Positions 4,793 to 17,190 of a stretch of DNA of 25,410 nt are shown here, in pieces. Made by a program: the position numbers and the translations under genes. Location of the stretch: positions 1 through 25,410 of IMG/VR virus record IMGVR_UViG_3300035156_000034. One strand, 5' to 3'. The notes under the pieces are model-generated. The model was not told where the DNA came from. It saw nothing but the letters and a program-made list of their open reading frames with translations, and ran no database searches. Positions within the stretch are counted from its first letter, which is position 1; the number at the start of each line of letters is the position of its first letter. Origin of the DNA: a virus.

Positions 4793-4802
4793 ATCTATCA
4801 TG
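4793..4802 (+). repeat. ATCTATCATG motif on a start codon
   Basis: Extended context AAGGATAATCTATCATG, identical over 17 nt to the copy at 3043. The ATG at 4800 starts the 244-codon gene. Confidence 0.8.
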
Positions 4803-5534
4803 GATATGGTTGAACACGGTGGTCAGTGCTGCGGCATTCGCACAATCTTTGGCTTCGATCACGGTACGGTCGCTGAACTAGACGCACACATAGCCCGCCT
4901 AGACGACATGACTAACATCGGTGGTGTTGGTGCGACGCGGATGGTCGAGGTTGTCCTCTCTGAGCGTCAGGTAACGCCGGGTGTTTGGCCTCGTCATCTT
5001 GCAGAGCGTGGCTTCCGTCTTGTCTCTCGCTTCCTTAACGCTAATAGCGGACGTAAGTGCTACGTCTTCCATCGCGCTAACTTCCTTCCTCTCAACGATC
5101 TTCCGTTTACGTGGGATGTGAACGCACGTGCAACTGACAACGGTGTGCGACCAGCAGCAACTCCTATCGCCCCTCCTGTTCGCTTTGCTATAGGTCAGCG
5201 TGTTCGGTACAGTAACCAAGGCTTCGCTCACATCCCTACTGGAACTGAAGGTGAAGTAATTGCTGTTGCCGGCACAGGAAATCCTGTTGTTCGTTGGGAT
5301 AACGGTCATACTTCTAGTGACAGGGGTCATAGCCAACATTACGTTGAGATTCTTGCTCCTGCACCAGTTGTTCGCACTGTCATTAGCACGTATCACAACG
5401 TACTTCGTGCAGGTCGTTCGGATGCTGGCTGGTCAACTCGTGCGGCAGCAGCAGGGGCAGCACCTCGTGCAGTGCGTATTGATCGTCGTGACGTTCGGTC
5501 GGACGGTAACATTGTTTGGACAGAAGGAGTTTGA
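4800..5534 (+). CDS. CCG-motif protein with C-terminal SH3/KOW-like segment
   Basis: 244 residues. The N-terminal half (about 8-100) carries GGQCCGIRTIFGF and a later ...LAERGFRLVSRFLN... pattern that also occurs in the next protein, so the two appear to be paralogues. Residues about 125-185 (RFAIGQRVRY, then GEVIAV and VVRWDNGH) look like a small SH3/KOW-type barrel. The tail is Ala/Arg-rich. No catalytic signature is recognised. Start set by AAGGA plus motif. It follows the six-gene array and precedes the amidotransferase cassette; function unknown. Confidence 0.75.
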   Translation: MDMVEHGGQCCGIRTIFGFDHGTVAELDAHIARLDDMTNIGGVGATRMVEVVLSERQVTPGVWPRHLAERGFRLVSRFLNANSGRKCYVFHRANFLPLNDLPFTWDVNARATDNGVRPAATPIAPPVRFAIGQRVRYSNQGFAHIPTGTEGEVIAVAGTGNPVVRWDNGHTSSDRGHSQHYVEILAPAPVVRTVISTYHNVLRAGRSDAGWSTRAAAAGAAPRAVRIDRRDVRSDGNIVWTEGV

Positions 5535-5543
5535 TCTATCATG
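5534..5543 (+). repeat. ATCTATCATG motif on a start codon
   Basis: Context AGGAGTTTGATCTATCATG; the ATG at 5541 is the start of the next gene, and AGGAG is its Shine-Dalgarno. Confidence 0.8.
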
Positions 5544-5999
5544 AACGTTACTAGCTTTCCTAACTGCTGCGGTGCATCGGTCATCATAAACTTCTCGGAG
5601 ATTGATGAAACTGCTCGTAATCGCCTTATCGAACTCGTCCACGGTGAAGACGGCAAGAAGTACAACAACCATGCATTGTTTATCATCCTCAACGACAGCC
5701 AAGCGACTTCTTCGCCTAAGCTGCTCGCTACGATGTCAGCACTTGGTTTCGTCTACGTCGGTCGTTCGAACAACAAGCTGCACGACTCGTGGATTAACAC
5801 GTTCATGCGTATCGACATTGGTCGTGCGAAGTACAAGGAAGCGCCGTTCAAGTATCCCGGCATTGATCGGGCTGACTGGACTGTCGAAGCGTCGCAGCTT
5901 CCACCACTGAAGCGAATTGACATTCCGAAGAAGGCTGTTCCTGATCCGTTCGCTAAGGCCAACGCTCCTACCTATCGTTACGACATTGAGGTGGCATGA
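5541..5999 (+). CDS. CCG-motif protein (152 aa), paralogue of upstream protein
   Basis: 152 residues. It shares with the protein before it an N-terminal CCG followed by a beta strand (NCCGASVIINF against QCCGIRTIFGF), then a Leu-rich helix, then L...GF.YVGRSNN and a terminal strand with Arg. It lacks the SH3-like extension. The C-terminal part is Pro/Lys-rich. Start placed by AGGAG and the ATCTATCATG motif. The ATGA overlap with the amidotransferase gene suggests it belongs to that operon. Function unknown. Confidence 0.75.
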   Translation: MNVTSFPNCCGASVIINFSEIDETARNRLIELVHGEDGKKYNNHALFIILNDSQATSSPKLLATMSALGFVYVGRSNNKLHDSWINTFMRIDIGRAKYKEAPFKYPGIDRADWTVEASQLPPLKRIDIPKKAVPDPFAKANAPTYRYDIEVA

Positions 6000-6769
6000 T
6001 GCATGGATTGAATGAATTGCTAATCCCCACGAATACATCGAAGACAACACGACGGCACAGCGATGATGAGTATCCTCAGCTTGACCTGAAGATTTTCATC
6101 GTTGGTACGTGCTTCATCGGTGGCGTCATCGAGATGTTCACCAAGGCGGGCTGTAAGCGCGCTGATAGTGTGAAGGATTGCGATCTGCTCGTGTTTACGG
6201 GTGGTGAAGATGTGGACCCAGCGCTGTATGGTGAGAAGGCGCTCCGTTATACGCATTTCAACGAGGCACGAGACGCTCGGGAAATCGACATATACACGGA
6301 AGCGGTTGCTCTCGGTAAACCTATGTTTGGCATCTGTCGTGGGATGCAGCTTCTCCATGTGCTGAACGGCGGTAAGCTATATCAGGATGTTGAGAATCAT
6401 ACGTCCACACACAACATCATTGACATGGAAGGCAACATCATTCGTGCGTCTTCTATGCATCATCAGATGGTGATCGAAGATGACTCGATGTTCCCTATCG
6501 CTTATGCTCAGACTAAGGGGCACGGTCGCTCGTACTCTTCGTTTGGTAAAATCCTTAATGATCCAGCACATCTGGATTGTGAAGCAGCGATCTATCCAAA
6601 CATCAACGCTGTCTGCGTTCAAGGTCATCCGGAAGTCGGTGGCTACGTAGACTATACGATCTGGTGTCTCAATCAGATCGACATCTTCCTCAACGACAAG
6701 TACGTCATGGGGCAGAACACGAAGCCTATTACGGAAGTCCCGTTCCTTAACCCGAGAGGTAGTGAATAA
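5996..6769 (+). CDS. Class I glutamine amidotransferase / gamma-glutamyl-hydrolase-like (peptidase C26)
   Basis: 257 residues. The class I glutamine amidotransferase fold is clear: TGGEDVDPALYGE (residues 68-80, typical of the C26 gamma-Glu-gamma-aminobutyrate/gamma-glutamyl hydrolase branch), nucleophile elbow GICRGMQ with Cys114, and VQGHPEVGG with His211 and Glu213. Family members hydrolyse gamma-glutamyl amides or release ammonia from glutamine. In this cassette it could trim a gamma-glutamyl product or feed ammonia to an amidoligase. ATG at 5996 overlaps the previous stop (ATGATG), and the end overlaps the next start (TAATG). The N-terminal ~30 residues are extra. Confidence 0.88.
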   Translation: MMHGLNELLIPTNTSKTTRRHSDDEYPQLDLKIFIVGTCFIGGVIEMFTKAGCKRADSVKDCDLLVFTGGEDVDPALYGEKALRYTHFNEARDAREIDIYTEAVALGKPMFGICRGMQLLHVLNGGKLYQDVENHTSTHNIIDMEGNIIRASSMHHQMVIEDDSMFPIAYAQTKGHGRSYSSFGKILNDPAHLDCEAAIYPNINAVCVQGHPEVGGYVDYTIWCLNQIDIFLNDKYVMGQNTKPITEVPFLNPRGSE

Positions 6770-8058
6770 TGTGCGGCTTAGTCGGGATCGCAGGCGATCT
6801 ATCATACAACGACAAGGATATTCTCAAAACGCTTCTAACTCTCTCTATCCTCCGGGGTGAAGATAGTGCAGGCGTTGCGATTGTTCCTGAAGATGGCTCT
6901 ACTCCCGACATTATCAAGACGGTCGGTACGTCGTTCGAGCTGTTCGGCATGACGAAGTTCGAGCGCTTCAGTCCTTTCCGCAAGAAGGCGCTGATCGGCC
7001 ACACTCGTAAGGCTACCATCGGTGGTATCAACAAGTACACGGCGCATCCGTTCAACTACGAGCACATCACAGGTGTTCACAACGGTACGCTGCGTAACTG
7101 GAAAGATCTTCCGGGTGACAGCCTAGCGACTGACTCGATGACGATGTATGAGAACTTCGCTCGCGTCGGTGTTCGTGAAACTATCGAAGCTCTCGATGGT
7201 GCGTACGCTGCTGTGTGGTGGGACGAGGAAAAGGGTACGCTGAACATCCTTCGTAACAAGGAACGTTCGTTGTACTATGCGTTTTGCGATGGCTTCAAGA
7301 AGATCGTCTGGGCTTCAGAAGCTTGGATGATTAACGTTGCTATCAATCGTTCGCCGTACAACCTCGACAACATGGCTAAAGAGGGCGAGGAGCCTTTGTA
7401 TGTCTGTGACGTTGATGTGGATACTTGGTTCGTCTTGAAAATCGACCGGGAAAATAAGGAAAAGCGTGTTATTTCCTTTCTGTCCGAGGAAGATTTGAAA
7501 GGGGGGGTCAACAAGCCTAAGACTTATCAAGCCCCTTTTCGCGGAGGGACTTATCAAAGCAGTTACCGCAGTCCTTTCGATTGGGAAAAAGAAAAGGTAG
7601 AAAGATTAAAGACAGAGGAGGCACAGAGGCTAAGCCTCCCGGGTCCTTCGCGCACTCCGGTCGCACCAGTAGTTACGCCGAAGCAAGAGGTAAACTCCCA
7701 GACACAACAGCATCAGACTTCCCAACAACCGCGGCCTATGCTCAGTATAGTGCCAACAAGCAAAAGCGATGGCTCCGAGTCGTCCTCCGCTGTGCAGCAA
7801 GATTTAGCCAAGAGGAGGCAGGAAGCCAAGCAACGGGTGTTAGCTAGTCGAGACTCTCTTAATGATCCCATTCCTGCTTTTGGGAATGAAGTTATAGGGT
7901 ACAAGGGTTCATTTCTAAACAAAGCTGACTACGAGAAGACATCGCAGCAATGCGCTTTCTGCGATACTACTGTAACTTTCGAAGACGCTCTCGAAGGTAA
8001 TATCGAATGCTGGGTCAACGAGACTCAGCTCCTTTGCACTACTTGCCACAACGTTTAA
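6769..8058 (+). CDS. Class II glutamine amidotransferase with C-terminal zinc ribbon
   Basis: 429 residues. The Ntn-hydrolase glutaminase starts with Cys2 (MCGLVGIAGD), needing removal of Met1. Further family marks are LRGEDSAG (28-35), GHTRKAT (77-83), GVHNGTL (102-108) and TDSMTM (121-126). The domain ends near residue 250. A Gln/Ser/Pro-rich linker (about 280-360) leads to a C-terminal CxxC...CxxC (395/398, 423/426), likely a zinc ribbon. No Asn-synthetase or PRTase domain is attached, so it must deliver ammonia to, or act with, a separate synthetase, plausibly the amidoligases or ATP-grasp downstream. A G7 run (7501-7507) stays in frame. Confidence 0.88.
   Translation: MCGLVGIAGDLSYNDKDILKTLLTLSILRGEDSAGVAIVPEDGSTPDIIKTVGTSFELFGMTKFERFSPFRKKALIGHTRKATIGGINKYTAHPFNYEHITGVHNGTLRNWKDLPGDSLATDSMTMYENFARVGVRETIEALDGAYAAVWWDEEKGTLNILRNKERSLYYAFCDGFKKIVWASEAWMINVAINRSPYNLDNMAKEGEEPLYVCDVDVDTWFVLKIDRENKEKRVISFLSEEDLKGGVNKPKTYQAPFRGGTYQSSYRSPFDWEKEKVERLKTEEAQRLSLPGPSRTPVAPVVTPKQEVNSQTQQHQTSQQPRPMLSIVPTSKSDGSESSSAVQQDLAKRRQEAKQRVLASRDSLNDPIPAFGNEVIGYKGSFLNKADYEKTSQQCAFCDTTVTFEDALEGNIECWVNETQLLCTTCHNV
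6797..6804 (+). repeat. ATCTATCA motif inside a gene
   Basis: Exact 8-mer 28 nt after the start codon of the class II amidotransferase gene. Confidence 0.55.
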
Positions 8059-8075
8059 CTGAGAAAGAAAGAGAC

Positions 8076-8085
8076 ATCTATCATG
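8076..8085 (+). repeat. ATCTATCATG motif on a start codon
   Basis: Context GAAAGAGACATCTATCATG; the ATG at 8083 starts the first amidoligase gene, after a 24-nt gap from the previous gene. Confidence 0.8.
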
Positions 8086-8931
8086 GCTACTAAGTTCACC
8101 ATTGGTTGCGATCCTGAAATCTTCGTGCGTGATGCTTCGGGCGTTGCTGTTACCGCACATGGCATGGTCGAAGGAGACAAGAAGGCTCCTAAGAAGGTCA
8201 ACAAGGGCGCGTATCAAGTCGATGGCATGGCGCTTGAGTTTAACACTGATCCGGTGGATATCGGTAACTTCGAGGCGTTCAACGACAACATCATCACGGT
8301 GTTGGGTCAGATGAAGGCAGCGATTCCTGAAGGCTTTGGGTTCATCGCTCAGCCTTCGATCACGTTTGCTCCTGAGTACTACGCAGGCGTTCCTGCTGAA
8401 GCTAAGGTGCTCGGCTGTGATCCGGACTACTGTGCGTACAGCATCGACATCTTCGAGCCTAATCCTCGTCCAGATGGCGACAGCGGTCTTCGTTCGGCGG
8501 CAGGCCACATCCACATCGGTTGGGGTTCTGACATTCCTACGGACCACCCTGACCACATCGACATCTGCCGTAACATCATTAAGCAGCTCGACTGGACTGT
8601 TGGTCTCGGTATGTGCGCTATCGACAGCGATACAGAGCGTCGCAAGATTTACGGCAAGGCTGGTGCCTATCGTCCGAAGTCTTACGGTGTCGAGTATCGT
8701 ACTCCAAGCAATGTGTGGATTTTCTCGAAGTCGTATCGCCGCTTCATCCATCGCCTCGTGAACCGCGCGATCACGGATATGTCGGCAGGTCGTATCTACG
8801 ATCAGCTTTACACGAGCTATGGTAATCCACAGACGATCATCAACGAAGGTGATCAGGGTGCAGCAGCAGCGTTGCTGAAGCAGCTCTTTGGTATTTCCAT
8901 TCCGGCAGCACCCACTCCTAAGGAGTCCTAA
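8083..8931 (+). CDS. PhiEco32-like COOH-NH2 ligase type 2 (amidoligase)
   Basis: 282 residues of the phage COOH-NH2 ligase family, a distant glutamine-synthetase-fold group predicted to join a carboxylate and an amine using ATP. Visible family marks: GCDPEIF (8-14, with Asp10 and Glu12 for metal), KAPKKV near 34, YQVDGMALEFN (44-54, Glu52), a central SAAGHIHIGWG (138-148, His142/His144) and YGVEYRTPSN (201-210, Glu204/Arg206). The start is fixed by the ATCTATCATG motif. Its neighbours are two glutamine amidotransferases upstream and a second amidoligase plus an ATP-grasp downstream. The substrate is unknown. Confidence 0.85.
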   Translation: MATKFTIGCDPEIFVRDASGVAVTAHGMVEGDKKAPKKVNKGAYQVDGMALEFNTDPVDIGNFEAFNDNIITVLGQMKAAIPEGFGFIAQPSITFAPEYYAGVPAEAKVLGCDPDYCAYSIDIFEPNPRPDGDSGLRSAAGHIHIGWGSDIPTDHPDHIDICRNIIKQLDWTVGLGMCAIDSDTERRKIYGKAGAYRPKSYGVEYRTPSNVWIFSKSYRRFIHRLVNRAITDMSAGRIYDQLYTSYGNPQTIINEGDQGAAAALLKQLFGISIPAAPTPKES

Positions 8932-8932
8932 G

Positions 8933-9553
8933 TTGTATACCACCCGTGAAGATGTATCTCGTCGGTTAGCTGACACCATTGTTGCTCTCAACAACGAGCC
9001 TGTTCACATCTATGACGTGGGTGGGCGTGGACCTAATGCGTTGACTGTTCGTTATCGGATGTTTCCTTTTGACGGCAGTGAAGTTGGCGAGTCTAGGGTA
9101 GATAATCCTGAGTTCAACAAGTTCAAGCCAATTCCTCTTGGCTTCATCAACGCATTCGAGTTGGGATCGCAGACGTACTTCGCACAGCGTATTCCGATGC
9201 GTCAGTCGAGGCAAGGTCTATCATCGCAATCATTCACTGCTACGGCGTTGGATGGTAGCAATCGTCTTGGGTTGGATCATCTGAGGATATCTGAAGGCTT
9301 TCGTGAGATGGTCGCAGGTGTGTATCCAACGTTCGACGAAGCGGTGACTATGCTTATTCCCGGCTCATCCATTGCGGTGAGTCGTGAGTTCGCGTTGGCT
9401 AAGTCAAATGGCGGCTACGTTACACTGTACTACAAGAAGGAAGAAGTTGGTTTCGTATTCCGGGATCAGCTTTACCTACAAGCGGACAAGCAGTTTCTCC
9501 TTGAGATGATCATTGAGAATCCGAACCTGCCAAACAACGTGGAGATTATGTAG
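8933..9553 (+). CDS. Unknown protein within the amidoligase cassette (206 aa)
   Basis: TTG start one base after the previous stop, preceded by AAGGAG (8920-8925); the frame is open further upstream, but that part lies inside the amidoligase gene. 206 residues, mixed alpha/beta, no Cys and no membrane segment. Notable stretches are VHIYDVGGRGPNALTVRYR near residues 24-42 and a C-terminal YYKKEEVGFVFRDQLYLQAD. I recognise no family. Its tight placement between the two amidoligases (TAGTG to the next gene) implies a role in the same pathway. Confidence 0.75.
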   Translation: MYTTREDVSRRLADTIVALNNEPVHIYDVGGRGPNALTVRYRMFPFDGSEVGESRVDNPEFNKFKPIPLGFINAFELGSQTYFAQRIPMRQSRQGLSSQSFTATALDGSNRLGLDHLRISEGFREMVAGVYPTFDEAVTMLIPGSSIAVSREFALAKSNGGYVTLYYKKEEVGFVFRDQLYLQADKQFLLEMIIENPNLPNNVEIM

Positions 9554-9684
9554 TGTTTCTTCTTTACTATCCGGATGAAGATCAAGTATTCATCTACGAT
9601 ACATTCGAAAAAGCAAAGAAATCGTACGATCACTATACTAATCAGGGTCTTGAGGTCGTGATCTATGGAAGGACGGGAGAATGA
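9553..9684 (+). CDS. Very small protein (43 aa) between the amidoligase genes
   Basis: GTG start overlapping the previous stop by one base, with GGAG (9541-9544) at an ideal 8 nt. Its TGA overlaps the ATG of the next gene by 4 nt. The protein opens MFLLYYPDEDQVFIYDTFEKA and ends EVVIYGRTGE, a beta-alpha-beta-like mini domain. Coupling at both ends makes it a credible gene despite its length. No known family. Confidence 0.65.
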   Translation: MFLLYYPDEDQVFIYDTFEKAKKSYDHYTNQGLEVVIYGRTGE

Positions 9685-10712
9685 AGAGTCTCGGAAAGTT
9701 TCCGAAAGCTATTTCGAAGACTTTTGATACGTCGAAGTATTACCATGATGTGCGTATGCCGGTGGCAGAGCAGAGCAAGTACACAGGCATGTTCGGTGTC
9801 GAGATTGAGGTAGAAGGCAACGCTCTTCCTCGTGCTATCGGTACTCGGGTAGGGTCTGTGTCTTGGGTGACACACGATGAAGGCTCTCTGCGGGCACCTA
9901 ACGGTGTTGATCGTGGTGGTGCAGAGTATGTGTTCTCTCAGCCGTGTGACCTCGAAGAATCGCGTGAGATGTTGACTAAGTTGTTTGAAGAAATTCAGAC
10001 GCAGGGTGGCGAGATTGTTAACAGCTATCGCACGTCCACTCACGTTCACATCAACATGCGTGACTTCAAGCTTAACAATCTCGCATCGTTCGTCGTCCTT
10101 TGGGGTATGTTCGAAGATGTTCTGGCTGAATACAGCGGTGAAGGGCGCGCGGGTAATCTGTTTGCTCTTCGTCTATCAGATAGTGACTTCGCAGTCACCG
10201 CATGGATCGACGCATTCAAGTCAGGTGACTTTGCATTCAACAGGGATTATCGTTATCTGGCTCTTAACGGAGCGTGTCTCGGTACGTTCGGTTCGCTGGA
10301 AGTACGTACGTTCAGGGGTATCAGTTCTGTTGATGAGGTTATGCCTTGGCTTGAAGCTCTTAAGCGCCTACGTGAGGTTGCAGATGAGTATGCTGATCCG
10401 TTTAGTATTGCTACTGATTTCAGTGCGTACGGCGCTCGTGGTATGATCGAACGATTGTTTGCAGGGTTGCCTATCCTCAGCGATTTGCTGGCTATCGAAG
10501 ACGCTAATCCTTCCACATCGGCAGGCTTTCGTCGCGTTCAACCTATCATCTACTGTCTCCCTTGGCAGGATGTTCTGCCTGAGATTGCTAAGGTGTACGT
10601 ACCTAATCCGTTCGACACGGGGCCTAAGAAAAAGCCTGCTGCTGCTCGTCGTACTGCTGAAATGCGTTTCAATCCAGCCCCTGCTATGCCCGTTCCTGAA
10701 GGACTCCGCTAA
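9681..10712 (+). CDS. Amidoligase (COOH-NH2 ligase, glutamine-synthetase-like fold)
   Basis: 343 residues. Pattern of the amidoligase family: FGVEIEVEG (38-46, Glu41 and Glu43), WVTHDEGSLR (62-71, Asp66), GGAEYVF (79-85, Glu82), TSTHVHINM (118-126, His121/His123) and a C-terminal GSLEVRTFRG (204-213, Glu207/Arg209). These acidic and His positions would form the metal/ATP site. Family members are predicted or shown to form isopeptide or amide bonds on amino acids or peptides. The sequence differs clearly from the 8083 ligase, so the cassette has two distinct ligases. Translational coupling on both sides (ATGA and TAATG). The C-terminal tail is Pro/Ala/Arg-rich. Confidence 0.85.
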   Translation: MKSLGKFPKAISKTFDTSKYYHDVRMPVAEQSKYTGMFGVEIEVEGNALPRAIGTRVGSVSWVTHDEGSLRAPNGVDRGGAEYVFSQPCDLEESREMLTKLFEEIQTQGGEIVNSYRTSTHVHINMRDFKLNNLASFVVLWGMFEDVLAEYSGEGRAGNLFALRLSDSDFAVTAWIDAFKSGDFAFNRDYRYLALNGACLGTFGSLEVRTFRGISSVDEVMPWLEALKRLREVADEYADPFSIATDFSAYGARGMIERLFAGLPILSDLLAIEDANPSTSAGFRRVQPIIYCLPWQDVLPEIAKVYVPNPFDTGPKKKPAAARRTAEMRFNPAPAMPVPEGLR

Positions 10713-11449
10713 TGCGTCTTCGTATCTTCCCGTACAAGCAAGGCTCTAAGTCTGCTAAGGCCCTCGCAGATGCGTCGGGGGCCCGTGTGCTTAAGCTTAC
10801 AGGCTCACGGTTCGTTCCCCGCCGTGACGATGTAATCGTTAATTGGGGTTCATCAGGTGAGGTGCCACGCAATGCCCGTATCCTTAATAACCCGCGCGCT
10901 ATTGGTCTCGCTGCTTGTAAGCTTCGTTCGTTTGAAGCTTTCCGTGCGGCAGGGGTTTCAATCCCGCGTTACTGGACCTCTCGTGCGGAGATACCGGCTG
11001 ACGCATATCCGATTGTCTGTCGGACTGTGCTTAATGGTCACAGCGGTCGTGGTATTGTTGTGGCTGCTACGCCAGATGGCCTCGTACAGGCCCCGCTTTA
11101 CGTAGAGTACGTGCCTAAGCAAGATGAATATCGCATCCATGTGTTTAATAATGAGGTTATCGCCACTCAACGGAAGGCTCGACGACATGATGTTGAAAAC
11201 CCAAATTGGAAGATTCGCAACCATGCTAATGGCTTCGTCTTTGCTCGGGATGGAGTCGTGGCTCCTCCTCTGGTACTAGAACAATCTATCATGGCTGTCG
11301 CTGCTTTGGGTCTTGACTTTGGAGGTGTGGATGTGGTATTCAATCGAAACCGAAACATGGCTTACGTACTGGAAGTGAACAGCGCCTGTGGATTAGAGGG
11401 GCAGACTGTTAACGATTACGCTAACGCGCTGCAAAGGATTGCACGATGA
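10712..11449 (+). CDS. ATP-grasp ligase
   Basis: 245 residues. Features of ATP-grasp: VIVNWGSS (41-48) closing the N-terminal domain, a nucleotide-binding glycine loop in CRTVLNGHSGRGIV (103-116), VEYVPKQDEYRIHVF (131-145) and metal-binding LDFGGVDVV (201-209, Asp207) with VLEVNSACGLEG (219-230, Glu221, Asn223). Such enzymes activate a carboxylate as acylphosphate and join it to an amine or thiol. It overlaps the amidoligase stop by one base, so the pathway contains at least three ATP-dependent ligases. A copy of the ATCTATCATG motif falls inside it at 11284. Confidence 0.85.
   Translation: MRLRIFPYKQGSKSAKALADASGARVLKLTGSRFVPRRDDVIVNWGSSGEVPRNARILNNPRAIGLAACKLRSFEAFRAAGVSIPRYWTSRAEIPADAYPIVCRTVLNGHSGRGIVVAATPDGLVQAPLYVEYVPKQDEYRIHVFNNEVIATQRKARRHDVENPNWKIRNHANGFVFARDGVVAPPLVLEQSIMAVAALGLDFGGVDVVFNRNRNMAYVLEVNSACGLEGQTVNDYANALQRIAR
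11284..11293 (+). repeat. ATCTATCATG motif inside the ATP-grasp gene
   Basis: Full 10-mer. The ATG (11291) is in frame with the ATP-grasp gene (Met194), but there is no good Shine-Dalgarno, so it is not clearly a start. Confidence 0.6.
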
Positions 11450-11712
11450 TTTACGATATTATCTTCTGGGTTACGATGTATATCGCCGTTGGTCTTATTA
11501 CTCGTGGAATAGTAATATTCTACGAAGGGACTCAAAATGATCGAGGATTTACGGAAGAACGAGACCAAGCCGTCTATTGGTTTATCCTCGTTGGCTGTTG
11601 GCCTATTGCATGGATTGCAGCACTTTGCTACGGTTTCACAAAGGTCTGGAAAAACATTGATCGTGTAATCTGGCAAACTGGTTGGAAGCTTCGTAATAGG
11701 AAGAAAGCATGA
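11446..11712 (+). CDS. Small two-span membrane protein
   Basis: 88 residues, ATGA overlap with the ATP-grasp gene. There are two hydrophobic helices, about residues 5-26 and 43-65, joined by a charged loop (EGTQNDRGFTEERD), with a basic tail (WKLRNRKKA) that should stay in the cytoplasm. No family recognised. Coupling places it at the end of the amidoligase cassette, where it might anchor or export something, but this is only context. Confidence 0.65.
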   Translation: MIYDIIFWVTMYIAVGLITRGIVIFYEGTQNDRGFTEERDQAVYWFILVGCWPIAWIAALCYGFTKVWKNIDRVIWQTGWKLRNRKKA

Positions 11713-12599: not shown

Positions 12600-12682
12600 G
12601 TTTGAAGCAAAAGATAAAGAAAATATCTGTTAACTGTTAGCTCCTAAGAGACATCTAAGAGGGGCTGTTGGAGAAATTAGTT

Positions 12683-13597
12683 ATGAATGGACCTAAGGTA
12701 TGGGAACCTCTGCTAGCTGCTGTCAGGCCCTTATGGCCGGATGCTATCATCGCAGGAGGAAGCCCCCGTGACTGGGTAATGGATGAGTCCATCAAACCCA
12801 AAGATATCGACATCTTCGTCACTGATGAGGATGAGCTGACGTTTAACCTCAAGCTGCTGAAGCTCGGTGAAAGTGAGCGGTTTGGCAGGCTGTCGATTAT
12901 GGACCCTGAAACAGCAGGCTACACAATTGAACGCTTGACAGATATCAAAGGTAATGATATAATCTGTGTAGGTGATGGAGGCTTCTCACTGGTACGAGGG
13001 CAAGCCATCAAGATCAACATCATCGTCAAAACATTCAAGGAGATGACGATTGATCGTTTGATTGACAGCTTCGATCACAGCCTGTGTCAGTGTTGGGTCA
13101 ACCCCGATACGATGCAAGTCGACAGCGTAGGCAACTTCAAGCAGACGCTCATCAGTAAGAAGGTTTTGCTGCTTCGTAAGGAAATGCAGGGGCGGACCCT
13201 TGAGAGGTTGCAAGCCCTCGCCCAGCGTCATAAGGCGTACGACGCCTTCTCGTGGGAGGGTAAGAATAAGACGTACAACAACGAGTTCTATCTTGTTCCT
13301 TCTAGTGATGTAGACAGGTACTCAAAGCTGTACGAAGGACTGCTTAACGCTGGCTATCAGTTGACGGAGTACATCTCAGATAGACAGGTGTATCGTATGG
13401 AAAAGCCAAAGGCAAAGAGAACCGTTGACCACCTCATCACCGATTTTGCTCGTATATATGCTGATGCACCAATTGCTCGGTTTAACGACGTACAGTTTGT
13501 CAATAACGCAGCCGCCCAATGGGTAGTAAATAATCGAGGAGGATTCGATTTTGAACCTATTCCTCATCACGATGAAAGGCTAAGAGATAACTTCTAA
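12683..13597 (+). CDS. Nucleotidyltransferase-fold protein
   Basis: 304 residues from ATG 12683, chosen because GGAG (12670-12673) lies 9 nt before it; a TTG at 12668 would add five residues. The N-terminal AIIAGGSPRDWVM followed by KPKDIDIFVTDED (Asp41, Asp43) is the nucleotidyltransferase pattern GG..RD...(K)DIDI seen in polyA polymerase/CCA-adding relatives. FDHSLCQCWV near residue 135 may supply a third acidic residue. Families like this are common next to phage primase genes, but the substrate is unknown. Downstream, it overlaps the likely start of the primase-helicase gene. Confidence 0.75.
   Translation: MNGPKVWEPLLAAVRPLWPDAIIAGGSPRDWVMDESIKPKDIDIFVTDEDELTFNLKLLKLGESERFGRLSIMDPETAGYTIERLTDIKGNDIICVGDGGFSLVRGQAIKINIIVKTFKEMTIDRLIDSFDHSLCQCWVNPDTMQVDSVGNFKQTLISKKVLLLRKEMQGRTLERLQALAQRHKAYDAFSWEGKNKTYNNEFYLVPSSDVDRYSKLYEGLLNAGYQLTEYISDRQVYRMEKPKAKRTVDHLITDFARIYADAPIARFNDVQFVNNAAAQWVVNNRGGFDFEPIPHHDERLRDNF
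12935..12963 (+). promoter_or_regulatory. Perfect sigma-70-like promoter inside the nucleotidyltransferase gene
   Basis: TTGACA (12935-12940), 17-nt spacer, TATAAT (12958-12963) preceded by TGA (extended -10). It has the same architecture as the promoter 390 nt upstream, but lies within coding sequence. It could give a second transcript into the primase gene. Confidence 0.6.
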
Positions 13598-15233
13598 CTT
13601 AGTTGAGCATACATCCTGTCCAGCCTGTCCTTCATCGGATGGGTTGGCAGTTTACGACGACGGACATACACACTGTTTTGTCTGTGGTCATCACACCAAT
13701 GGCGATGGAGGCACATCCCACATAAGCACTGAAAAGATTTCGGATAACTTTAGTCCGCTAACGAACATCTATCATGACCTGCGCGTTCGCTCTATCTCTA
13801 AAGATTCGGTGAAGCGTTATGGTGTAGACGTAAATATGGACCGCGACTCTGATGTCATCGCTAAGTACCCTGTCTTTAAGAAGGGTGAACACGTTGGCAA
13901 TAAGATTCGCAAGAAAGGAAAGGTATTTTTCTATGAAGGGGACGCAAAAGAACTCGACCTCTTCGGACAACACGCATTTCCGGAGGGAAGCGCTAAGGCA
14001 ATTACAATCGTTGAGGGTCAAGATGACGCCCTCGCAGCGTATGAGCTTACCGGCTCACAATTTCCTTGTGTGTCTGTCCACGGCTCGTCTTCAGCAGTTG
14101 CTGACTGCAAACGAAACTACGAGTACCTAAACAGCTTTAACGAAATCGTTATCTGCTTCGATAGGGACGAAGCCAAAGTTAACCCTAAGACTGGTGAAAA
14201 AGTATTCCCGGGTCAAGACGCTGCAATTAAAGTTGCAGGACTATTCAAACCCGGCAAGGTTCGATTGCTCACTCTCCGTGAATTCAAAGACCCTAACGAA
14301 TATCTAGAAGCTGGTCGTGCAAAGCAGTTCGTCAAGGAATGGTGGGGAGCACCAACGTACAAGCCTGACGGCCTTAAGCTAGGCACTCAAATGTGGGACG
14401 AGATTATCAATCGTCCTAATCACTTCACTGTACCGTGGCCGTTTGAAGCCTTGCAGAAGGTAACGTACGGTATTCGTCTATCGGAGTTCATTCTTGTTCA
14501 CGCTCCTACGGGGGTTGGCAAGACCTCCATCATTAAGGAAGTAGAGTATGCCCTCCTCACAAACAAGGAGCTTCAGGAAAAAGATTACGGAGTGGGTTTC
14601 CTCCATTTGGAAGAGCCTAACCACGACACCGCTCTTGGGCTTATGTCTGTTCACAACAGCAAGCCTTATCATCTACCTGATACAGAGCGTAACACCGACG
14701 AACTCAGAGCTGCGTACGATTCTGTCATTAACACAGATCGCGTTGTCATTTGGGATCATTTCGGAAGTAATTCTGTGGATGCCGTTCTTGAAAAAGTACG
14801 TCACATGCACGCTCTTGGTTGTAAGTACATTGTTGTTGATCACCTCAGCATTATCGTTAGTGATCAATCTGGAGATGAGCGTAAGCAGCTAGATGAGATT
14901 TCAACCAAACTCAAGACGCTATGCATGGAGCTTAACATTGCCCTCATTTGCGTCATTCACCAAAACCGAGCAGGACTCGTACGTGGAACTGCTGGTGTGG
15001 AACAAGTTGCTAACATTGTCATCAGGCTCGAACGAGACAAGACAGCAGTAAACGACTGGCGTCGTAACATCACTAAGACAACGGTTGAGAAGAATCGTTT
15101 CAGTGGTACTACAGGGCCTGCGTCGTATCTGCACTACAACCCTAAGACAGGGAGACTAGAAGAACTAGATCAAGAGGAGATAATCGAATATGAAGCAGGA
15201 AACGAACGACAAGACGATCAAGTTCCTTTCTGA
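13587..15233 (+). CDS. T7 gp4-like DNA primase-helicase
   Basis: Bifunctional primase and replicative helicase. The N-terminal zinc motif begins with CPAC (codons 13617 and 13626) and continues SSDGLAVYDDGHTHCFVC, which resembles T7 gp4. The first pair lies upstream of the first in-frame ATG/GTG/TTG (TTG 13644), so the start must be earlier. ATA 13587, 7 nt after AAAGG, is the only candidate and is unusual. Counting from 13644: Toprim Glu124 (IVEGQDDA), Asp173/Asp175 (CFDRDEA), Walker A APTGVGKTS (287-295), Walker B VVDH (Asp399), then IHQNRAGLVRG. About 548 residues, against 566 in T7. Confidence 0.9.
   Translation: MTSNLVEHTSCPACPSSDGLAVYDDGHTHCFVCGHHTNGDGGTSHISTEKISDNFSPLTNIYHDLRVRSISKDSVKRYGVDVNMDRDSDVIAKYPVFKKGEHVGNKIRKKGKVFFYEGDAKELDLFGQHAFPEGSAKAITIVEGQDDALAAYELTGSQFPCVSVHGSSSAVADCKRNYEYLNSFNEIVICFDRDEAKVNPKTGEKVFPGQDAAIKVAGLFKPGKVRLLTLREFKDPNEYLEAGRAKQFVKEWWGAPTYKPDGLKLGTQMWDEIINRPNHFTVPWPFEALQKVTYGIRLSEFILVHAPTGVGKTSIIKEVEYALLTNKELQEKDYGVGFLHLEEPNHDTALGLMSVHNSKPYHLPDTERNTDELRAAYDSVINTDRVVIWDHFGSNSVDAVLEKVRHMHALGCKYIVVDHLSIIVSDQSGDERKQLDEISTKLKTLCMELNIALICVIHQNRAGLVRGTAGVEQVANIVIRLERDKTAVNDWRRNITKTTVEKNRFSGTTGPASYLHYNPKTGRLEELDQEEIIEYEAGNERQDDQVPF
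13767..13776 (+). repeat. ATCTATCATG motif inside the primase gene
   Basis: Full 10-mer, context GAACATCTATCATGACC. The ATG is in another frame than the primase and has no evident gene. Confidence 0.6.
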
Positions 15234-15363: not shown

Positions 15364-17190
15364 TTGTACTTAGATAAACCCAACTCGAAGCAATGGTTGC
15401 TGGACATCGAGACCGATGGATTAAACCCCACGGTTGTTTGGGTTATGTGTGCAATCAACCTTGGTACAGGTGAAGAAAAAACCTTCACCGACTACCCAAA
15501 AATAAGAGAATTCATCAATGAATCGCTTAACACCGGATGCATATTCGTTGGGCATAACGTGCTCGCGTTCGACATCCCTGTTCTCAATCGTCTTGTTAAT
15601 ACCCGTATTCCTGTGTCTGCTTGTGTGGATACCTTTCTACTTTCTATGCTGTACTCTCCCGGCCTTGCTGGTGGGCATAGTCTCGAAGCGTGGGGTAAAA
15701 GGCTCGGCTACCCTAAAACGGATTTCAACGACTGGTCCCGATTAAGTGACGCAATGGTCACATATTGCCTTAACGACTGTCGCGTTAACGTTCGCGTTTA
15801 TGAGCGTCTGTCTGCTAGGATGCGTGAGGTGGGGTTCAGTAATCGCGCGTGTGAAATCGAGCACAAGGCGTGGAGCATCATTCGCAAGCAACGAAATAAC
15901 GGCTTTGCATTCGATGTCCCCAAGGCTCACGAGCTTTACGCTGAGATACGACAACTCGAACGAGAGATACGAGATGAAATCTACAAACGATGGCCCCCCG
16001 AGCTTCTTGCCGTTAAGCGATTTGTTAAGGCGGCTCGACTCGATGGAAGTCCTTCTGCGAACTATGAGAAACACTGTGCCCAGTATCCTAGAATCGACAT
16101 TAACGAAGACGGAAGCTACACAGCGTTTGATTACGTGGAATTCAATCTTGGAAGCCCAAAGCAAAGAGTTGAAAAGCTTCTTGAACTCGGTTGGAAACCC
16201 CGAGAGTTTACCCCCAAAGGAAGTCCTCAACCAACACGAAAGGGAAATCTATCACCGTCGCTATTAGAGTTTGTAGAGTCTACTGATAACGAGCCTGTCA
16301 AGCTTCTCGCTGAATGGATCGCGATTAACGCTCGCGGTAACATGATCAGTGGTTGGCTAGACATTCACAAGGATGGATTGATACATGGAAACCTTTGGTT
16401 GGCTGGCAGCCTTAGGTATCGTCACGATAAACCTAATACTGCTAACATTCCTGCTGTCCGAGTTGCTAAAGATAAGTCACCAATTATGGGACGTGCAGGT
16501 CAGTTCACGTATGAGGCTCGTGATCTTTGGATTACTCGTGATCGCACCAAACGTCGTCTTGTTGGTGTGGATGCTAAAGGAATTCAGTTACGCATTCTCG
16601 CACACTACCTAAATGATGCGAAGTTTACTGAGGCTATTCTCTCTGAAGATCCTCACGAAGCTAACCAAAAGAACATGGGCCTAGCAACCCGTGCGCTAAC
16701 TAAGACGATCACGTACGCAACTCTGATGGGTGCTGGTGACGCTAAGATTGCGGGAGAGGCTAAGGTGTCGTTAAAGGAAGCGCAAGCCGCTAAAGCACTG
16801 TTCTTCGAGCAGGTGCCGACACTCCCGAAGCTCATCAGACGGCTTAAGTCTGAGCTACGACAATCAGGACGTATCACACTGTGCGATGGTGCGAAGGTTC
16901 TGGTTCCCTCTGACCACATGGTTATCCCGTACCTGCTTCAAGGTGACGAGAGCCGCATTATGAAACAGGCGATGATTTATGTCGACCAAGGAATTAGACG
17001 TGAAAGGATCGACGCCCTTAAAGTTGGTGACATCCATGACGAATGGCAAAGTGACGTACTCACAGACCATTTGGACGTATATGTCGCACTATGTAACGAA
17101 AGCTTTCCTCGATCCGGACGTAGCTTCGATTACCGTGTCCCGATTGAATGTGACGCCAAAATCGGACTTACGTGGGCAGAAACACACTAA
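15364..17190 (+). CDS. Family A (T7-type) DNA polymerase
   Basis: 608 residues, TTG start 9 nt after GGAGG (15350-15354). 3'-5' exonuclease motifs: DIETDGL (Asp14, Glu16), GHNVLAFD (Asp70) and YCLND (Tyr134, Asp138). Polymerase motif A is VGVDAKGIQLRILAHY (Asp403, Arg410), motif B RALTKTITYATLMGAG (Arg443, Lys447, Tyr451) and motif C HDE (558-560). All catalytic residues are present, so it should be an active proofreading replicase. It is about 100 residues shorter than T7 gp5 (704), and I do not see a thioredoxin-binding loop of the T7 kind, so processivity may rely on another factor. Confidence 0.93.
   Translation: MYLDKPNSKQWLLDIETDGLNPTVVWVMCAINLGTGEEKTFTDYPKIREFINESLNTGCIFVGHNVLAFDIPVLNRLVNTRIPVSACVDTFLLSMLYSPGLAGGHSLEAWGKRLGYPKTDFNDWSRLSDAMVTYCLNDCRVNVRVYERLSARMREVGFSNRACEIEHKAWSIIRKQRNNGFAFDVPKAHELYAEIRQLEREIRDEIYKRWPPELLAVKRFVKAARLDGSPSANYEKHCAQYPRIDINEDGSYTAFDYVEFNLGSPKQRVEKLLELGWKPREFTPKGSPQPTRKGNLSPSLLEFVESTDNEPVKLLAEWIAINARGNMISGWLDIHKDGLIHGNLWLAGSLRYRHDKPNTANIPAVRVAKDKSPIMGRAGQFTYEARDLWITRDRTKRRLVGVDAKGIQLRILAHYLNDAKFTEAILSEDPHEANQKNMGLATRALTKTITYATLMGAGDAKIAGEAKVSLKEAQAAKALFFEQVPTLPKLIRRLKSELRQSGRITLCDGAKVLVPSDHMVIPYLLQGDESRIMKQAMIYVDQGIRRERIDALKVGDIHDEWQSDVLTDHLDVYVALCNESFPRSGRSFDYRVPIECDAKIGLTWAETH
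16247..16254 (+). repeat. ATCTATCA motif inside the polymerase gene
   Basis: Exact 8-mer followed by CCG; not linked to a start codon. Confidence 0.5.

Follow-up and report, generated by a model that had tools for sequence, protein, structure and literature searches.

A podophage amide-ligase cassette in an IMG/VR virus record and its possible gamma-glutamyl chemistry

Introduction

A seven-gene "peptidoglycan modification cassette" has been described in podophages; it includes a gamma-glutamyl amidoligase, a second amidoligase, an ATP-grasp enzyme, GGCT, and a glutamine amidotransferase, and was reported in RIO-1, PSA-HP1, phiEco32, 7-11, PA11, tf, MR299-2, LUZ24, PaP3, and CW02 (Duhaime 2017, PMC5498523). 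Its hypothesised role is the prevention of superinfection (PMC5498523), and in PMC10580990 the peptidoglycan and superinfection idea is credited to Iyer 2009. This hypothesised role is repeated in published annotations, and the ligase spans well-studied Pseudomonas and E. coli phages. Here we analysed six same-strand genes at positions 5996 to 11449 of IMG/VR virus record IMGVR_UViG_3300035156_000034; the window analysed is the entire 25.4-kb record (25,410 nucleotides). The six genes belong to the podophage amide-ligase cassette already described and are not a new system. Useful additions to earlier work are a quantified co-inheritance, the removal of two non-members, a missing companion protein (UP310), the reading of the class I protein as a hydrolase, and the pattern of C26 and GGCT occurrence.

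Results

Gene content and comparison with described cassettes

Five of the six cassette genes encode members of enzyme families with intact catalytic residues, and the sixth encodes a 206-residue protein. The open reading frames (ORFs) of the region, with the E-values of their Pfam and PHROG matches, are as follows.

5996 to 6769, plus strand: C26 (PuuD-like) gamma-glutamyl hydrolase-family protein, GATI, 257 residues (PF07722, 1.6e-25; phrog_7218, 1e-39)
6769 to 8058, plus strand: class II (GlmS/PurF-type) glutaminase with a C-terminal four-cysteine zinc ribbon, GATII, 429 residues (PF13522, 2.8e-16; phrog_4736, 3e-63)
8083 to 8931, plus strand: phiEco32-type COOH-NH2 ligase, LIG, 282 residues (PF14395, 1e-8; phrog_3815, 5e-69)
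8933 to 9553, plus strand: U206, 206 residues, TTG start (phrog_11055, 5e-22)
9553 to 9684, plus strand: ORF of 43 residues, GTG start; probably not a cassette member
9681 to 10712, plus strand: Amidoligase_2 enzyme, AMD2, 343 residues (PF12224, 5.6e-5; phrog_7469, 3e-51)
10712 to 11449, plus strand: RimK-like ATP-grasp ligase, ATPG, 245 residues (PF08443, 3.5e-6; phrog_2599, 2e-79)
11446 to 11712, plus strand: membrane ORF of 88 residues with two hydrophobic segments by hydropathy; probably not a conserved member

The PHROG matches were stronger than the Pfam matches (E-values of 5e-22 to 2e-79). The ORFs and coordinates listed in an earlier note on this DNA were all confirmed, as were the joins: ATGA overlaps at 5996, 9681, and 11446, TAATG joins at 6769 and 10712, and a TAGTG join at 9553. 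The class II amidotransferase and ligase genes are separated by 24 bp, and the TTG start of the U206 gene at 8933 is preceded by GGAG.

The window has LIG, Amidoligase_2, the RimK-like ATP-grasp enzyme, and the class II amidotransferase on a single strand, next to primase/helicase and polymerase genes. It shares with the podophage cassette (PMC5498523) the ligase, the 206-residue-type protein, Amidoligase_2, the class II amidotransferase, the ATP-grasp enzyme, and the replication-gene neighbours, but it has a C26 hydrolase, no detectable GGCT, and no UP310. The gene order GATI-GATII-LIG-U206-AMD2-ATPG is, small inserted genes aside, that of the Zobellviridae isolates Pseudomonas phage Ty, Citrobacter phage CVT22, and Klebsiella phage Klyazma; their ligases are 40-44% identical to that of the window, and, unlike the window, they carry UP310 before GATI. 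GATII precedes the ligase gene in the window as in Zobellviridae, whereas the class II gene follows AMD2 in LUZ24 and phiEco32-like phages.

Co-inheritance of the cassette genes

IMG/VR was scanned with alignments of the ligase, AMD2, C26, and ATP-grasp proteins, and deduplication at 90% AMD2 identity left 74 loci with enough flanking sequence. Each scan was limited to its 80 closest relatives; in addition, the bait sets share members, and some of the records may be fragments. LIG, AMD2, GATII, and ATPG were found jointly in all 74 non-redundant viral loci, and their joint occurrence was the same whichever gene served as bait; U206 was present in 71 loci, GATI in 70, UP310 in 56, and GGCT in 30. 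The cassette genes, GGCT not counted, lay on one strand in 74 of 74 loci, with a median core span of 4.8 kb. This one-strand recurrence across non-redundant viral loci places the arrangement far beyond chance, and the scattering of the genes among relatives that would have spoken against a common pathway was not seen. The ligase was detected in 314 of 50,697 phage records, and the isolates bearing it include Zobellviridae, LUZ24-like, phiEco32-like, Moazamivirus, Lahexavirus, and Rhizobium phages.

Conserved residues of the ligases and the class II enzyme

Residue conservation was read from alignments of 15-38 relatives per family. In GATII, C2 was conserved in 30 of the 30 rows reaching that position and C426 in 33 of 34, and R80, N105, G106, D122, and the zinc-ribbon residues C395, C398, and C423 were invariant. 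The GlmS match of GATII covers the N-terminal glutaminase alone (residues 1-116), not the sugar isomerase part of GlmS, with a score far under the cut-off. Invariant residues of LIG in 15 phages were D10, E12, Q45, D47, E52, R137, H142, H144, K199, E204, and R206; those of AMD2 in 35 sequences were E41, E43, E45, E82, H121, H123, R156, E207, and R209. From this conservation and the family assignments, the amidoligase residues are taken to be the putative catalytic ones. ATPG retained K70, R104, K155, R169, D207, E221, and N223 in all 36 sequences. The claim that the catalytic motifs are intact therefore holds: the putative catalytic residues are invariant across the aligned relatives, and no loss of them was seen.

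The ATPG profile matches solved structures of RimK/alpha-L-glutamate ligases (7qys, 6.7e-8; 5zct; 4iwx), with which it shares the ATP-grasp signature residues, and the protein exceeds the cut-off of the Pfam RimK domain (27.2 versus 21 bits). On the other hand, ATPG is shorter than these ligases and falls under the rimK_fam TIGR00768 cut-off (33.6 versus 143.4 bits). No transmembrane-like segments were found in LIG, AMD2, U206, or GATII, and merely borderline stretches in GATI and ATPG; the cassette proteins therefore probably work in the cytosol.

In five loci (L045, L046, L047, L048, and L065), two ATP-grasp genes flank the GATII-LIG-U206-AMD2 block on either side, which suggests a duplication or a second ligation step.

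The C26 protein and removal of gamma-glutamyl groups

GATI scored 90.6 bits against Pfam Peptidase_C26 (PF07722; cut-off, 20.5) and has the Cys-His-Glu triad. C114/H211/E213, R115, Q118, and H155-H156-Q157 were invariant in 38 sequences. Both single-sequence and family-profile searches gave Lin1909 (3fij), 7d4r, and PuuD (6vtv) as the closest solved structures, and the family profile ranked these hydrolases above carbamoyl-phosphate synthase and GMP synthase. PuuD/SpuA-type C26 hydrolases, with which GATI shares the catalytic Cys/His/Glu and an SxHHQ-type motif, are thus its best solved-structure sequence matches. The top NCBIfam matches were gamma-glutamyl-CDP-amidate hydrolase and PuuD, yet the scores are far under the equivalog cut-offs (35 versus 250 bits and 26 versus 266 bits, respectively), so that a substrate is not assignable. 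By sequence, GATI looks closer to the gamma-glutamyl hydrolases than to ammonia-donating amidotransferases. Where the locus had been described as holding two glutamine amidotransferases, the class II enzyme is upheld, and the class I protein is better placed near the hydrolases.

Among fully flanked cassettes, GGCT was present in 9 of 9 lacking GATI and in 26 of 71 carrying it, a difference that gave p = 0.0003 in a Fisher test uncorrected for relatedness and was not significant by independent pairs. Because every fully flanked cassette without GATI has GGCT, removal of a gamma-glutamyl group is suggested to be a required step of the pathway. In the window, the gamma-glutamyl-cleaving enzyme is represented by the C26 protein.

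The divergent phage-like contig L106 encodes LIG, two C26 proteins, and GGCT, with AMD2, GATII, and ATPG undetected, and this combination also speaks for a gamma-glutamyl-removing step. The contig, from a Stahlbacteria metagenome-assembled genome, has RNA-polymerase-like domains, and a gene for a 467-residue protein lies among its ligase, C26, and GGCT genes (L106:5174-10066).

U206, UP310, and the two small ORFs

An AlphaFold model of U206 had a mean pLDDT of 93.8. Residues 3-98 weakly resemble SH3/Tudor-type barrels (best Z, 5.2 over 58 residues, N-terminal barrel only), and a Foldseek search of the model against solved structures gave no match at E ≤ 0.001; with matches this weak and limited to the N-terminal barrel, U206 may still have a known fold. 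The BFVD matches were other phage proteins, including one from Salinivibrio phage CW02. U206 may be a non-enzymatic partner, acting as a scaffold or as an acceptor- or substrate-binding subunit.

UP310 is a family of 250-660 residues found in 56 of 74 non-redundant loci, usually directly upstream of the C26 gene. Cys56 and Arg141 are invariant (numbering of the L022 protein, L022:6851-7810), and the model is confident (pLDDT, 90.3), with no useful match among solved structures. In the window, its slot is taken by a 152-residue ORF (5541-5999). This ORF and the adjacent ORF 4800-5534 share relatives, the same proteins being matched in L019, L021, and L023, and both contain a CCG motif; the C-terminal stretch of ORF 4800-5534 is DUF4314-like.

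The earlier note had counted the 43-residue and two-span membrane ORFs as cassette genes and had proposed searching for the 206- and 43-residue proteins in relatives. U206 was recovered, as given above, and the 43-residue ORF had no credible relative in the 50,697 phage records or in the compared loci. The U206 and AMD2 genes are at most 60 bp apart in 70 of the 79 relatives, which leaves no room for such a gene between them, so that the 43-residue ORF was rejected as a conserved precursor peptide. A conserved short precursor peptide gene, as in graspetide-like clusters, was found neither in the U206-AMD2 interval nor in the 43-residue ORF. The 88-residue membrane ORF had no relative in the compared loci and only a weak match to phrog_4955 (0.008); it is not conserved and was likewise rejected as a cassette component.

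Discussion

Proposed pathway

We propose that the cassette encodes a gamma-glutamyl amide-ligase pathway, with a probability of roughly 0.6. The GATII glutaminase would free ammonia from glutamine for a partner ligase, and LIG, AMD2, and ATPG would use ATP to activate carboxylates and make successive amide bonds on a single acceptor in the cytosol. One or more of these bonds would be gamma-glutamyl amides, afterwards cleaved off by the PuuD-like C26 hydrolase; many relatives have GGCT in addition to C26 or in its place. The SH3-like U206 may bind the acceptor or bring the enzymes together. Much as in the Puu pathway for putrescine, the gamma-glutamyl group would act as a protecting group or carrier. 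A peptidoglycan precursor and a free metabolite or small peptide are equally possible as the acceptor, each held tentatively; a protein is somewhat less probable, and DNA very improbable. More speculatively, and doubtfully, the cassette may be a mid-infection assembly line that uses gamma-glutamyl protecting groups to make a new small molecule or to tag a host protein, and in which U206, joined in most relatives by UP310, would be a dedicated carrier of the acceptor. We know of no phage with a demonstrated gamma-glutamyl protecting-group pathway. The suggestion that gamma-glutamyl removal is compulsory and the low probability of base modification narrow the search for the cassette product.

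Several points weigh against the proposed pathway. The literature found, in which subscription papers were little covered, contained no demonstrated activity for any cassette enzyme. The LIG and AMD2 profiles match no related solved structure, and profile-profile comparison of the two gave no alignment and no sign of homology; because of this, their ligase role rests on the Pfam and PHROG assignments. Changes in the C26 gene number only about five on the ligase tree, too few events for significance in the pair test, and the nine GATI-less loci include phages chosen by the authors. In addition, both GGCT and UP310 were undetected within the window.

Alternative explanations

The earlier note's interpretation is partly supported. 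Its proposal of an uncharacterised amide- or peptide-bond pathway agrees with the families, residues, and co-inheritance, but the cassette itself and the idea of a cell-surface change against superinfection had already been published (PMC5498523; Iyer 2009 as cited in PMC10580990). According to that idea, side chains of cell-wall precursor peptides are altered, and the changed surface blocks a second phage; it was hypothesised for phiEco32- and RIO-1-type phages (PMC5498523; PMC10580990). An enzymatic precedent is MurT/GatD, which amidates peptidoglycan glutamate (PMC3267633). All hosts named among the sampled ligase matches are Gram-negative. Gamma-glutamyl linkages are normal in peptidoglycan. 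The same literature, with subscription papers little covered, yielded no supporting experiment, however, and the cassette includes no conserved membrane or exported protein. Timing also argues against this role: PaP3 ORF32-48, which include its cassette beside replication genes, are middle genes with peak expression at 10-30 min (PMC4707531), and expression in the middle phase together with replication genes would leave little time for wall rebuilding. As a full explanation, wall modification is thus rather unlikely.

Scavenging of amino acids or nitrogen, with auxiliary metabolic genes that would make glutamine, ammonia, and gamma-glutamyl compounds available again to the growing phage, is less probable still. 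A role in nitrogen metabolism was proposed for the genes of Poriferisphaera phage ZRK32, which promotes growth on nitrate or ammonium (PMC10945688) and has a ligase relative 67% identical to that of BroderSalsa, but the consulted passages of that paper do not link the growth effect to cassette genes. Two dedicated amidoligases and an ATP-grasp enzyme would, moreover, spend ATP on bond building, and the strict co-inheritance of all three ligases suggests a single product. Least probable by far is hypermodification of phage DNA bases. Amide- or amino-acid-linked bases occur in other phages, and the cassette lies directly upstream of the primase and polymerase genes; however, this alternative is disfavoured because Nanopore comparison of native and amplified DNA of Rembedalsseter, which carries the cassette, showed a nick motif only (PMC11780129).

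Neighbouring genes

The replication genes 3' of the cassette are primase/helicase (13644-15233) and DNA polymerase (15364-17190), and genes for a Cas4-like exonuclease, an endonuclease, a metallophosphoesterase, and ribonucleotide reductase are also located on this side. A nucleotidyltransferase-like gene (12668-13597; phrog_1614, 3e-17) lies between the cassette and the primase gene; Bas90, too, has a nucleotidyltransferase gene close to its replication genes (L011:21758-23071). In three phages, genes for phosphoribosyl pyrophosphate (PRPP) synthetase and nicotinamide/nicotinate phosphoribosyltransferase are found near the cassette (L002:12989-16127, L013:3986-6549, and L014:2187-4468).

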